The notes beneath the pieces were generated by a model. The model was not told the origin of the DNA and did not search any database. It saw only the letters and a list, made by a program, of their open reading frames with translations. A program made the translations under genes and the position numbers. Of a stretch of DNA of 15,340 nucleotides, positions 4,305 through 14,398 are shown piece by piece (positions within the stretch are counted from its first letter, which is position 1; each line of letters starts with the position of its first letter). The DNA is from Nitrospinae bacterium RIFCSPLOWO2_12_FULL_45_22 (lineage in GTDB: Bacteria; 2-12-FULL-45-22). The stretch spans positions 1 through 15,340 of the forward strand of contig MHDQ01000038.1 of assembly GCA_001803565.1 (NCBI GenBank). Reading direction: 5' to 3'.

Positions 4305-4386
4305 CCACAAAGAGCACGAAGAGAAGCTTCGGATATTATTCGAAGGATTGTCAATTAAATTCTTTGTGTCCTTTGTGTCTTTGTGG
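4305..4386. repeat. Imperfect inverted repeat of the CCACAAAG family
   Basis: The 131-bp gap between the glycosyltransferase-like and radical SAM genes is largely an inverted repeat. The left arm CCACAAAGAGCACGAAG (4305-4321) pairs with CTTTGTGTCTTTGTGG (4371-4386) with one bulge and one mismatch. A second copy of the word (CTTTGTGTC, 4362-4370) adjoins the right arm. A smaller dyad, CTTCG/CGAAG, lies near 4327-4345. Related words occur in other gaps of this window (8316, 11950, 12049, 15234). It could fold in RNA between the two genes, but no terminator T-tract is seen. Confidence 0.7.
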
Positions 4387-4401
4387 TAACAAATTTAATT
4401 T

Positions 4402-6345
4402 ATGGCAATAATAGTCGCTGAGACAAAGAGAATCTTATTAACAGGCTTCAGGGCCAGGCTAGATATTGAATTAGACTTCAGGGAGTTAGCTGGCGCTAGT
4501 TTTTGTGTGGATATCTATGGACTCCAGGGGAAGCACCCAGAGACCCATTTAGGCTTTTGGGACTTCGACATTAAGCCCGTCTTTTGCCCGGCTACTATCC
4601 AGATAGATTTTAGTAGCTTAACCCAAAAATCGGTCCTGTTGGAGATAGGGGAGCAGTTGCTGGTCAGCGAGCGGTACTGGGTAAATGAGGCCTATTATTT
4701 CCAGCCTCAACAAGAGCTAAAACTGGTAGTATGGAAGAGGGGCCAGGTGGTTGAGCTGCATGAACTCCTGCTAGAGATTCCCCAGAAGAAGGACCTGAAA
4801 AGGCTACAACAAAGACCCTGGGCAAAAGACCTGTCCAATGTAGAGATGTTTTTTGTAGAACTTACCAATGTATGTAATTTTCGCTGCTCCTTCTGTCCGG
4901 AAAGTATCATGACCAGAGAGAAGGGGTTTATGGATTTCGCATTGGCAAAAAAGATTATGGATGATATTGCCCAGATGCGATACAAACGGCCCCACTTACG
5001 CCAGGTAGTAGAGCTCCGCTACCCGGTTGCCCTACACTTGATGGGGGAACCCCTCTTGTATCCCTACCTTTTTGAGGTGATTGAATATGCTAAGACCAAA
5101 GGCATAGAGCTGATTTTATTTACTAATGGAGGCCTGTTAACCGAACAGGCAATAGACCGGTTGATAGAGCTGGAGCTACGGTTTTTAGTATTAAGCCTCC
5201 AGACCCCTAGCAGGGAATTATTTAGCTTACGGGATGCCCCTATACCATACGAGGCTTATCTGGAAACAATCCGGAAGGTGATAAAGAGAAAGGTTGAGCG
5301 GGGAGCCCTTTATCCCAGGATAGAGGTTCATTTTCTTAATACCAAATTTACCCGGCCTAAAGGGATAAGGGTCATAGATGATAACCGACAGACTAAAGAA
5401 GTAGCCCTCTCCTGGCTCGATTTTGCCCACCAATTAGCCCGGGAGTTTCATATTGTCCCTAAAAATTCCTCTTCCCATGATTTAGAGCACTTGCTGGACC
5501 TGCGGGGCGGGGAAGAATACCTTGAAATCCTTGAAGGGGTCAACTTAGTGTTTAAGGGCACTACTACCTTTGCCAACTATCTCCTGGAGCCAGGTATAGA
5601 AATTATAGGCGCTGAAAAGGGCTACTGCCCGGTAGATGCCCCGTATAAGCAGTTAGGTATCCTCTGGAATGGTGATTGTACCTGCTGCTGCCTCGATTTT
5701 GATGGCCGGATCAATATTGGCAATGCAGCCCAGGAGTCTTTAGAAGATATCTGGTTTGGGGCAAAGATTGAACGGATTCGCCGGGCCATGAATAAAGGTG
5801 TTTTAATAGAACCTCTTTGTCAGCGATGTCGTGGGACACCGCTAAATGCCATGACTCCTGAGAACCCGGCTGACCAAACCAGTCTTCTGCTTACCGCCCA
5901 GGATCATACGGCTACAGTAAGCAGGCTTGCCGACCAATTAAATATGGAGAAGCCCGGTATAGGCCAATTAGGTGAGGGCTGGTACCCGGCTGCTAGGGAT
6001 GGTGAGAAGGGGTATAGATGGACGGGCAAGAGGGCTACTTTTTCCCTGCGTAACAGTGGAAAACCGTATCTATATCTGGAGCTTCATGGTTACCTGGGGC
6101 GCTGTGCCAGGGTCTTCCGGGGGAGAGTAAGAGGGGTTGTCAGGGTTAATGGAATAGAGACCGGGAGGTTCTCGCTCCTGAGACGCCGTTGGAAAGAAAT
6201 AAGATTGTCCCTCCCAAAGCTCGAATCAGAAATATTAAGGATAGAAATCGAGGTTGATAGGACCTGGAGGGCCACCGACTACCCCTTAGGTAAATTCCCT
6301 TACCCGGTAGGAGTGGCGCTACACCAGGCCACCCTTACAGAATAA
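4402..6345 (+). CDS. Radical SAM/SPASM-like protein with N- and C-terminal beta-rich modules
   Basis: The 647-residue protein has three parts. Residues 1-130 are beta-rich with no recognised catalytic motif. The core (about 148-480) is a radical SAM domain: C158-N-F-R-C162-S-F-C165 is the classic CxxxCxxC [4Fe-4S] site, and LMGEPLLYP (213-221) is the SAM-binding GEP-type motif. A SPASM-like auxiliary cluster region follows, with C409, C426, C428-C430, C473 and C476 around DFDGRINIGNA and ending PLCQRCRG. Residues 525-647 (GWYPAARDG, YRWTGKRA) form another probable beta-sandwich of a type I associate with surface-polysaccharide enzymes. The enzyme should do 5'-deoxyadenosyl radical chemistry in the cytoplasm; substrate unknown. 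It lies downstream of the GT-C-like gene, so a glycan or peptide-glycan role is inferred. The ATG at 4402 has no evident ribosome site. Confidence 0.85.
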   Translation: MAIIVAETKRILLTGFRARLDIELDFRELAGASFCVDIYGLQGKHPETHLGFWDFDIKPVFCPATIQIDFSSLTQKSVLLEIGEQLLVSERYWVNEAYYFQPQQELKLVVWKRGQVVELHELLLEIPQKKDLKRLQQRPWAKDLSNVEMFFVELTNVCNFRCSFCPESIMTREKGFMDFALAKKIMDDIAQMRYKRPHLRQVVELRYPVALHLMGEPLLYPYLFEVIEYAKTKGIELILFTNGGLLTEQAIDRLIELELRFLVLSLQTPSRELFSLRDAPIPYEAYLETIRKVIKRKVERGALYPRIEVHFLNTKFTRPKGIRVIDDNRQTKEVALSWLDFAHQLAREFHIVPKNSSSHDLEHLLDLRGGEEYLEILEGVNLVFKGTTTFANYLLEPGIEIIGAEKGYCPVDAPYKQLGILWNGDCTCCCLDFDGRINIGNAAQESLEDIWFGAKIERIRRAMNKGVLIEPLCQRCRGTPLNAMTPENPADQTSLLLTAQDHTATVSRLADQLNMEKPGIGQLGEGWYPAARDGEKGYRWTGKRATFSLRNSGKPYLYLELHGYLGRCARVFRGRVRGVVRVNGIETGRFSLLRRRWKEIRLSLPKLESEILRIEIEVDRTWRATDYPLGKFPYPVGVALHQATLTE

Positions 6346-6530
6346 GCTAGTTTCCATCCATAAATGGCCATTTTCCACAATCTCTGCGTCAATCTGCGGG
6401 ATTATTTGTGCGACGTACTAAAGTACGACTCCGCATAATCCCTTGATTTCCTTGACCTTGCGGAAAATTCCTCATTTCTGGATTGGAAACTAATTAGTGC
6501 CACGATTTCATTTATGGATGGGCACTAGCT
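6345..6530. repeat. 186-bp palindromic element with 22-bp terminal inverted repeats
   Basis: The arms 6345-6366 and 6509-6530 are inverted copies matching at 20 of 22 positions; the shared core is CCATCCATAAATG. Inside is a second dyad, GGGATTAT/ATAATCCC, around CGTACT-AA-AGTACG (about 6400-6444), plus ATTTTCC(A/G)CAA in both halves, so the whole is a nested imperfect palindrome. The left end shares its first base with the stop codon of the radical SAM gene. The element fills most of the 232-bp gap between convergent genes. It has no coding capacity, resembles a MITE or a palindromic intergenic repeat, and could serve as a two-way terminator. Confidence 0.75.
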
Positions 6531-8240: not shown

Positions 8241-8315
8241 CCTATAATTGTTTGGAAGATAGCGTTGGGTTCTTTACCAGACACCCGACACGTCTTTGAG
8301 ACATCTCTTAGTGCG

Positions 8316-8332
8316 CTTTGTGGCTTTGTGGT
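8316..8332. repeat. Single arm of the CCACAAAG-type repeat
   Basis: CTTTGTGGCTTTGTGGT lies in the 121-bp gap between the ligase and dehydratase genes and resembles the right arm of the repeat at 4305-4386. No good opposing arm is visible here, so it looks like a remnant or half copy. Nothing else is recognised in this gap apart from the ligase ribosome site. Confidence 0.5.
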
Positions 8333-12091: not shown

Positions 12092-14398
12092 TTATTGCAA
12101 ATAGTGGGAGAGGGCAGTATAGCGGTTTTTTACCTTATCGTTTTTCACGGCAATAGCCGCCGCCCTCTTATCCCCAACTAATACCGCTAGTTCCTTTGCC
12201 CGAGTTAGCGCAGTGTAAAGGAGGTTACGCTGGAGCAGGAGGTAGTGCTGGGTAGAAAGGATGATAATAACGGCAGGATACTCGCTCCCTTGAGATTTAT
12301 GCACCGATATAGCATAAGCCAACTCGATCTCATCTAATTCATTATAGTCGTAATCTACTAAACCATGATCATACTGTACTGTTATCATCTGGTCTTCTGG
12401 CTGAATTTTTATGATACGACCTATATCACCATTATATACCTCCTTATCGTAGTTGTTCTTTATCTGCATGACTTTGTCTTGCACCCGGAGCGTCTTAGCG
12501 CCTATTTTAAATTCTCTACCGTGCGAGTTCAAGGTCTCTTGGAGCTCAAGATTAAGGTTTATAACACCTATTAGCCCTTTGTGCATAGGGGTTAAAACCT
12601 GGATATCATGGATAGGATGGAAATTATAATGTCTTGGTATCCAGTAAGTATATAACCATTTTATTTTAGCCAGGAGTTTTTCGGGCTCCTCTTCTTGTAC
12701 AAAATAAAAATCTTTTCTCCTGTCCCCTTCTATAGAAGGGAGATAGGGAAAGATGCCGTTATTTATTTTATGGGCATTGACGACAATGGTACTCTCTTGT
12801 GCCTGGCGAAAGATCTCTGTGAGATAAACAGTCTTTACCCTGCCGGAAGCTATTATATCTTTTAATACATTCCCTGGCCCTACCGATGGGAGCTGATTAA
12901 CATCCCCAACCAGGATAAGATTCGTCCGGGGTGGTATAGCCTTCATCAAATGCTGCATCAGGAAAATATCAATCATAGAGGCTTCATCTACTACCAGGAG
13001 ATCGGTTTCTAAAGGGTTTTGCTCGTGTCGCTGAAATCCACCTTTCTGGTAGCTATATTCTAACAGGCGATGGATAGTCATGGCTGGATAACCGGTAGCT
13101 TCTGACATGCGTTTAGCGGCCCTACCGGTGGGGGCAGCCAGGAGTATTTGGGCTTTTAGGCGGCTATAAATTTCAATAAGGGCATTAATCAGGGTAGTCT
13201 TACCCGTGCCAGGACCACCGGTAATAACCATTACCTTATGTTCTAAGGCAGCGCGAACAGCTTCTTTCTGTTGCTCGGCCAGCTTTATCTTCAGTTTCTC
13301 TCCTATCCAGCCCAAGGCCCTTTCTGGCTCAATCTTTTGGAGCTGCATAACGGATTCTGTCAGGGCCTTTATCCGCCTTGCTACCATCTTCTCGGCCCAA
13401 TAGTTTTCGGGTAAATATACCGGGGCTTGGGGGTCAGGGCTCAGGGATTGGGCTTCTTGGTTCTTGGTTCCCTGATCCCCGAGCCCCGAGCCCAGATCCC
13501 CAATAACTACCTTCTTGGTCTGGGTTAAACCTTCCAGTACCCCTCGTACTAATTCCTCATCTACCCCCAATTTTTCTGCCCCGATATTTATTAAACTATG
13601 AGCAGGGTAGTAGAGATGTCCTTCGTCGGTCATTTCTTTTAAGGTATAAACTATTCCGGCCTGGAGCCTCTGAGGGGATTGTGGGGTAAAGCCAAGGCTC
13701 TGGGCAATCTTATCTGCTGTCTTAAAGCCAATGCCAAAGATATCGGTAGCCAGGCAATAGGGGTTTTCCTTCAGGACATTTATCGCCTCCTTACCATAAT
13801 GTTTATAGATCTTGGCCGAATACCCTGCGCTAATCTCGTAGCTCTGCAGGAAGATCATTACCTCACGGATATCCTTTTGGGTTTGCCAGGATTCTGTTAT
13901 CTGTCTTGCGCGATATTCTCCTATCCCCTCCACATCCTTCAGCCTCTGGCTATCCTTCTCAATAATATTTAGCGTTTCAGTACTAAACTTCTCTACCAGC
14001 CGTTTAGCCATAACCGGGCCGATCCCTTTTATTGTACCTGACCCAAGGTATCGCTCAATACCCTGGATAGTAGCAGGGATAAGGGGTAGACAGGTTTCTA
14101 CCTGGAACTGTTCTCCATAAGTCTTATGTTGTACCCATTCGCCGGTTACCCTGAGGGTATCACCTGGATTATGAGGGATCAAGTTGCCAGTAATCACTAT
14201 GGTCCCTTTACCACCCAGGAGCCGCAGCTTGGCCACAGTATAATTATTCCCTTCATTAAAAAAGATTAATTTTTCTAGAGTACCTTCGAGGGTCTTATCT
14301 TTCTTCCCCTTGCTCTTGGCCTCAGCGCTAATCTGGTATGAGTTCATGTATCTCTGGGGGTATGGTAAAGATGTTTTCTGTGAGTCTCTTGCTGCCAT
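12092..14398 (-). CDS. recD2: RecD2-like DNA helicase with an in-frame repeat insertion
   Basis: RecD2 is a 5'-3' superfamily 1B helicase found in bacteria without RecBC; it acts in repair and fork maintenance. Residues 38-110 are the N-terminal OB-like domain (EGTLEKLIFFNE). Helix-hairpin-helix segments follow (GSGTIKGIGPVMAKRLVEKF 119-138; VEGIGEYRARQI 156-167; IFGIGFKTADKIA 220-232). The helicase has Walker A GGPGTGKTT (394-402), APTGRAAKR (422-430), Walker B VVDEASM (469-475), GDVNQLPSVGPG (498-509) and the late motifs AYAISVHKSQGSEYPAV and LYTALTRAK. Residues 299-324 are a low-complexity insert encoded by an inverted repeat. At 768 residues it is slightly long for the family. Start uncertain: ATG at 14398 (AGGA 3 nt before it, 71-bp overlap with the upstream gene) or ATG at 14347 (20-bp overlap); similarity begins near residue 38 either way. 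Confidence 0.95.
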   Translation of the reverse strand: MAARDSQKTSLPYPQRYMNSYQISAEAKSKGKKDKTLEGTLEKLIFFNEGNNYTVAKLRLLGGKGTIVITGNLIPHNPGDTLRVTGEWVQHKTYGEQFQVETCLPLIPATIQGIERYLGSGTIKGIGPVMAKRLVEKFSTETLNIIEKDSQRLKDVEGIGEYRARQITESWQTQKDIREVMIFLQSYEISAGYSAKIYKHYGKEAINVLKENPYCLATDIFGIGFKTADKIAQSLGFTPQSPQRLQAGIVYTLKEMTDEGHLYYPAHSLINIGAEKLGVDEELVRGVLEGLTQTKKVVIGDLGSGLGDQGTKNQEAQSLSPDPQAPVYLPENYWAEKMVARRIKALTESVMQLQKIEPERALGWIGEKLKIKLAEQQKEAVRAALEHKVMVITGGPGTGKTTLINALIEIYSRLKAQILLAAPTGRAAKRMSEATGYPAMTIHRLLEYSYQKGGFQRHEQNPLETDLLVVDEASMIDIFLMQHLMKAIPPRTNLILVGDVNQLPSVGPGNVLKDIIASGRVKTVYLTEIFRQAQESTIVVNAHKINNGIFPYLPSIEGDRRKDFYFVQEEEPEKLLAKIKWLYTYWIPRHYNFHPIHDIQVLTPMHKGLIGVINLNLELQETLNSHGREFKIGAKTLRVQDKVMQIKNNYDKEVYNGDIGRIIKIQPEDQMITVQYDHGLVDYDYNELDEIELAYAISVHKSQGSEYPAVIIILSTQHYLLLQRNLLYTALTRAKELAVLVGDKRAAAIAVKNDKVKNRYTALSHYLQ
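13428..13502. repeat. GC-rich inverted repeat inside recD2
   Basis: Arms 13428-13452 and 13478-13502 are inverted copies matching at 20 of 25 positions; both contain GGGCTC flanked by G-runs. The spacer includes TTCTTGGTTCTTGGTTCC. The repeat keeps the recD2 reading frame and encodes a Gly/Asp/Gln/Pro-rich stretch, residues about 299-324, between the N-terminal region and the helicase domain. It looks like a dispersed palindromic element that has entered a gene. Confidence 0.75.

Follow-up and report, generated by a model that had tools for sequence, protein, structure and literature searches.

Both protein-coding palindromes and G-rich heptamer repeats have been described in bacteria. Rickettsia palindromic elements (RPEs) are found between genes and in frame within conserved genes, where they occupy tolerated positions, and an RPE-bearing guanylate kinase is translated and active (PMC2229807). 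The Correia/NEMIS elements of Neisseria occur as 107- and 155-bp forms, one of which lacks stops and is found fused into genes, whereas the other has stops in every frame and is almost exclusively intergenic (PMC2229807). REPs tagged with GTAG or CGTC lie inside ORFs of many species, and the ORFs concerned often code for DNA synthesis and repair proteins (uvrA, uvrB, recB, dnaE, ligase) or tRNA synthetases (Di Nocera et al. 2013, PMC3733652). GGGNATC heptamer repeats, which have G-quadruplex (G4) potential and are frequently paired in inverted orientation, are known from Xanthomonas and Nostoc, with 70-75 GGGNATC pairs in inverted convergent orientation in xanthomonads (Rehm et al. 2015, PMC4692102).

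The locus described here combines features of these systems. The stretch of DNA analysed, hereafter the window, is 15,340 nucleotides long and corresponds to contig C38 of the genome G000, a 3.67-Mb draft in 321 contigs that is 85% complete. The sole other genome of its order in our comparison is G001; none is nearer, and the others share only the domain with G000.

The recD2 palindrome and its encoded loop

The window codes for a RecD2 protein that is normal except for a palindromic insert. It matches TIGR01448 with 904 bits (E 5e-272) and harbours the Pfam domains OB_YrrC, HHH_RecD2, AAA_19/30, SH3_13 and UvrD_C_2, the helicase core starting near residue 373. Its closest relatives are Desulfobacterota-type proteins (~50-54%). 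The relevant features are as follows:

12092..14398, - strand: recD2, coding for the SF1B helicase RecD2, 768 residues, intact frame
13423..13503, no strand: heptad quasi-palindrome, read on the - strand as recD2 residues about 299-326; from self-complementarity and family members elsewhere
13423..13452, + strand: G-rich arm GGGCTTG GGGGTCA GGGCTCA GGGATTG GG; from the sequence and a G4 scan
13453..13469, no strand: loop or core in which a different seven-base unit occurs twice, TTCTTGG TTCTTGG; from the sequence
13470..13501, - strand: G-rich arm GGGGATCTGGGCTCGGGGCTCGGGGATCAGGG, a G4 motif; from the sequence and a G4 scan

One arm is made of G-rich seven-base units, GGGNTCR, and the other of their complement. 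In the + strand arm, G runs separated by 4-base spacers constitute a G4 motif; the - strand arm comprises the units GGGATCT, GGGCTCG, GGGCTCG and GGGATCA plus extra Gs, and the reverse complement of the core encodes ..KNQE... A sequence-only reading of the window had reported 25-bp inverted arms with 20 matches out of 25, captured in frame within recD2. The arms are indeed present and the gene is uninterrupted. Their best register is shifted by one heptad, with 21 of 25 pairs for the arm at 13423-13447, and two pairing registers exist because both arms consist of seven-base units. The ungapped self-complementary stretch at 13427-13503 scores 27, the highest value among all 105-bp windows in the 15.3 kb (runner-up, 23).

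Folding of the element as single-stranded DNA gave -20.9 kcal/mol, a z-score of -2.3 relative to shuffled sequences, with 4 of 200 shuffles folding equally well. By folding energy alone, the palindrome is thus only moderately beyond chance; the family evidence presented below settles its reality. The element has a GC content of 64%, compared with 46% for the window, and its two arms are the only two G4 motifs of the 15.3 kb, one on each strand. Four G-tracts with predicted G4 potential are present on both strands of the recD2 element and in 9 of 23 family members. An Rfam search of the window matched no known RNA family. Other repeats of the window include two intergenic copies (85%) of TCTTTGTGTCCTTTGTGTCTTTGTGGT, near-tandem inside, at 4361-4387 and 8306-8332, and a 22-nt inverted repeat (91%) at 6345-6366 and 6509-6530, whose arms lie 142 nt apart in the gap after a radical-SAM-like gene.

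At the protein level, the insert precedes the helicase core, between the N-terminal region and the helicase as originally described. Its location had been given as residues ~299-324; the encoded stretch is slightly longer, GDLGSGLGDQGTKNQEAQSLSPDPQAP corresponding to residues 300-326. Alignment with ~80 RecD2 homologues showed that none shares the residues of the insert. The distance between the KKVVI and VYLP anchors is 27 residues in the window protein, compared with a median of 9 among 79 proteins, only one of which has a longer spacing; the same loop comprises 4-18 residues in other RecD2 proteins, plus one case of 45. As this loop naturally varies in length, the insert enlarged a tolerant site.

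An AlphaFold2 model generated from a 27-sequence alignment (mean pLDDT 80.5) has residues 303-320 as its sole internal segment with pLDDT <50. This segment is flanked by predicted strands, one ending at ~299 and the next spanning 326-328, and is preceded by helices at 266-277 and 281-293. The model thus places the insert at the tip of a putative β-hairpin, between the HhH region and the helicase core. This arrangement would fit a winged-helix-like domain with the insert in its wing, a fold name that is our interpretation. In G001, RecD2 (L032:2700-2960) has a repeated low-complexity linker of its own, of ~60 residues, located ~25 residues downstream of the insertion site in the window protein; considered as a candidate dispersed repeat, this linker was found not to be dispersed. 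Nor could the G001 gene be used as an empty site, as its contig stops where the VYLPENYW equivalent begins and the site is missing.

A dispersed heptad palindrome family

The search of the host genome proposed in the sequence-only reading shows that the motif recurs throughout G000. Of the two observations named there as refuting it, shared residues in homologues and confinement of the DNA motif to this locus, neither was made. The pattern GGGNTCRGGGNTC yielded 57 matches versus 4 for the reversed pattern used as a control, with ~20 of the 57 belonging to a separate, MITE-like family. A hairpin pattern, GGGNYYRGGGN{3,33}CCCYRRNCCC, was found 13 times per strand versus 0 for the control, these partly overlapping matches representing about ten sites. 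Among the 290 genomes searched, G001 has 51 matches per strand versus 4 for the control in 1.5 Mb, and most others have 0-3; a few genomes have 4-13, although in several of them the control is about as frequent. In the loci read, the G arm precedes the C arm in 12 cases and follows it in 0, and the best single match to the recD2 element, 22 of 23 bp, is located between ORFs on contig C157. The recD2 feature is therefore an in-frame member of a dispersed heptad palindrome family that is enriched in this order and in which GGGNTCR runs are separated by a short spacer from the runs of the complement that come after them. Our counts for G000 come from pattern searches and from stretches read in context, and they miss weaker members.

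We read the surroundings of 23 non-MITE members and found 12 between ORFs, 5 that overlap the start or end of an ORF and 6 within long conserved genes. Since intergenic members predominate and the nearest single match is also located between ORFs, the change proposed earlier, from intergenic repeat to coding sequence in recD2, is the direction that we infer. A heptad in an apparent adenosylhomocysteinase gene (C246:15180) looks like ordinary coding sequence and was discarded, as was a 504-residue frame of C47 obtained in a peptide search, which reads as glutamine synthetase and represents a chance match.

The sequence-only reading had considered recD2 alone; it is one of six genes with in-frame members, the others being tmk, metG, dnaX, slt and that of an acyl-CoA dehydratase activase. 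In tmk, 12 residues (RGQGSGIRGPQR) fall opposite a gap in the Aquifex thymidylate kinase. According to Pfam, the metG member separates the anticodon domain from the C-terminal tRNA-binding domain, that of dnaX separates domain III from the C-terminal domain, and that of slt, which codes for a TPR-SLT transglycosylase, separates its TPR part from its SLT part; the activase member comes after DUF2229. The recD2, transglycosylase and activase (~40 pairs) members are clear palindromes; pairing amounts to 13/15 in dnaX and to an 8-bp stem in metG, and tmk has a single arm. In all six cases, the stretch can be read without stops on that strand only in the frame of the gene itself.

The tmk gene (L164) also harbours, in its C-terminal part (G000:C58:4216-4276), a pure tandem of AAGAACM that encodes a heptapeptide repeat like KNKEQRT, and two copies of this unit are present in the core of the recD2 palindrome. 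AAGAACN was considered as a second dispersed family and rejected, as the one in tmk is its only tandem site in G000. The members of the MITE-like family of G000 are about 81-183 bp long and have the 12-bp ends GTAACAGTTCAC / GTGAACTGTTAC; its subterminal parts share seven-base units with the heptad palindromes (GGGGTCAG, GGATCAG, TTGTCAG). Its copies include the following:

L167:2879-3036, L182:3006-3149, L192:6839-6982, L195:582-740, L198:3013-3171 and others: MITE-like copies

In G001, the hairpin family is strongly amplified (e.g. L262, L272-L275), with GGGGCTA/GGGATTA as its heptads and a loop that is conserved around AAGAAGAGCTTTTGC.

Origin of the insert and codability of the unit

We consider it likely that a member of this family inserted into the variable loop of RecD2 and was tolerated there, as selfish or neutral DNA rather than as an adaptation of RecD2. 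A copy of the heptad palindrome would have arrived from elsewhere in the genome, entered the naturally variable loop at the tip of the putative β-hairpin and been retained because it does little harm. The insert would be tolerable because sense arrays of the unit are stop-free and the resulting loop, rich in G, S, P, D and Q, is flexible and away from the helicase motifs. As DNA or RNA, the element could fold into a hairpin, and a G-quadruplex might form in each arm. It does not class as a MITE, with neither GTAACAGTTCAC ends nor a target-site duplication seen by eye. As for a mobilising enzyme, five Y1_Tnp matches were found in the 85%-complete G000, with no heptad pair within ~1.5 kb of them in the loci read.

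The main rival explanation is growth in situ: the structure would have been generated inside recD2 itself, by slippage in steps of seven bases together with quasi-palindrome correction, with no element arriving. Such a process would fit the degeneracy of the units and their variation from copy to copy, the pure tandem of another unit, AAGAACM, in tmk, and the fact that many genomes have 7-nt repeats as their commonest class, for which slippage has been proposed (PMC4679880, introduction). Against it, a single unit alphabet recurs at dozens of loci, and the strict order of the arms (12 versus 0) together with the 22/23-bp match elsewhere indicates copying between loci, so that we regard in situ growth as unlikely.

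We give still less credence to a functional, selected insert that would alter RecD2 activity, or whose RNA hairpin or G4 would tune the recD2 message. The predicted hairpin and G4 potential on both strands would suit it, as would the behaviour of the related GGGNATC repeats, which fold into G4 in vitro and of which most are transcribed (PMC4692102). Nevertheless, homologues show no conservation of the insert, the confidence of the model is low there, as a disordered loop would give, and unrelated housekeeping genes carry similar inserts. In addition, a permutation analysis of arm-specific covariation gave 297 within elements versus 292 +/- 11 between elements, the arms matching their own partners no better than others, and selection for each hairpin is thus unsupported. 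Finally, that the insert is an ordinary variable linker with a palindrome arising from coincidental low complexity, as the varying length of the RecD2 loop (4-18 residues, one of 45) and the z-score of just -2.3 might suggest, is highly improbable given that the heptads fit a dispersed family (hairpin pattern, 13 per strand versus 0), the 57 versus 4 excess and the enrichment in G001.

Tolerance of an inserted member, our preferred reading, has a counterpart in the coding properties of the unit. A perfect GGGNTCR array is stop-free in all three sense frames, and an array of GGGATCA encodes GIRDQGS cyclically in every frame, without stops; as 7 cannot be divided by 3, all frames yield one and the same heptapeptide cycle. 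The complement TGATCCC has one TGA per 21 bases in every frame, and CGATCCC encodes RSPIPDP and is stop-free. The TGA of the complementary arm is lost where the unit reads CGA, or it is kept out of frame. In contrast, the G001 units GGGGCTA and GGGATTA give TAG or TAA in all sense frames, and among 15 G001 hairpin loci read (~11 distinct), none lies within an open frame of at least 100 residues.

Drawn from two genomes, this contrast in codability is suggestive only. It raises the tentative possibility, which we find rather doubtful at present, that the stop content of the unit decides gene entry by the heptad palindromes of this order, the stop-free unit of G000, whose insertions would be neutral in content whatever the frame, recurring in conserved genes as flexible linkers and the stop-bearing unit of G001 staying intergenic. 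If this is true, the codability of a repeat unit would be a trait shaping proteome evolution. The stop content and period of a unit would provide a simple rule that could explain which palindromic repeats turn coding and which remain intergenic, and the pair formed by G000 and G001, with coding-compatible and stop-bearing units, respectively, makes this rule testable. For annotation, housekeeping proteins of such genomes may show odd stretches of the GSGIRDQGS or PDPRSPIPDP kind, which should be read as translated DNA repeats.

Comparison with known repeat families

Like the GTAG/CGTC REPs, members of the G000 family enter genes of the DNA repair and tRNA synthetase kind. However, neither the GTAG nor the CGTC tetranucleotide is present in 13423-13503, so that the element has no tag, and no RAYT partner was found in the loci read. 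The Correia/NEMIS elements offer a parallel to G000 and G001 in the contrast between their stop-free and stop-bearing forms, but they are MITEs of larger size that have terminal inverted repeats and follow a fixed consensus. The TAACTGA repeats of Beggiatoaceae (PMC4679880) are also dispersed seven-base units, several at each site; unlike the G000 palindromes, they are direct and mainly intergenic, have stops on the forward strand and are built on another unit.

The GGGNATC repeats are similar to the G000 family in being tandem G-rich seven-base units with G4 potential, dispersed and mostly intergenic; members of the G000 family comprise at least two such units in tandem and are scattered over the genome (57 versus 4). 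The unit differs, however, being GGGNTCR in G000 (GGGGCTA/GGGATTA in G001) without GGGAATC, and the arrays are short and heterogeneous. Neither GGGAATC nor the Nostoc GGGGAYT was found in the recD2 element, in which at most one unit resembles a rotated Nostoc GGGGATT. The intragenic share of the GGGNATC repeats is 7-11% with partial overlaps counted (PMC4692102), compared with 6 of 23 G000 members wholly inside conserved genes and in frame.

By its behaviour, the G000 family is RPE-like: its palindromes are dispersed, they occur both intergenically and in frame within conserved genes, and the recD2 insert is absent from homologues. The analogy with Rickettsia drawn in the sequence-only reading thus holds for a coding palindrome, but what defines the family is a degenerate unit of seven bases and not a fixed palindrome. 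RPEs are 105-146 bp long and have a family consensus, whereas G000 members are mostly 45-130 bp, share only the degenerate heptad and belong to an unrelated deep lineage. The G000 family combines the protein-coding palindrome with the G-rich heptamer repeat, and it extends the known range of protein-coding palindromes to a deep, poorly sampled bacterial lineage.
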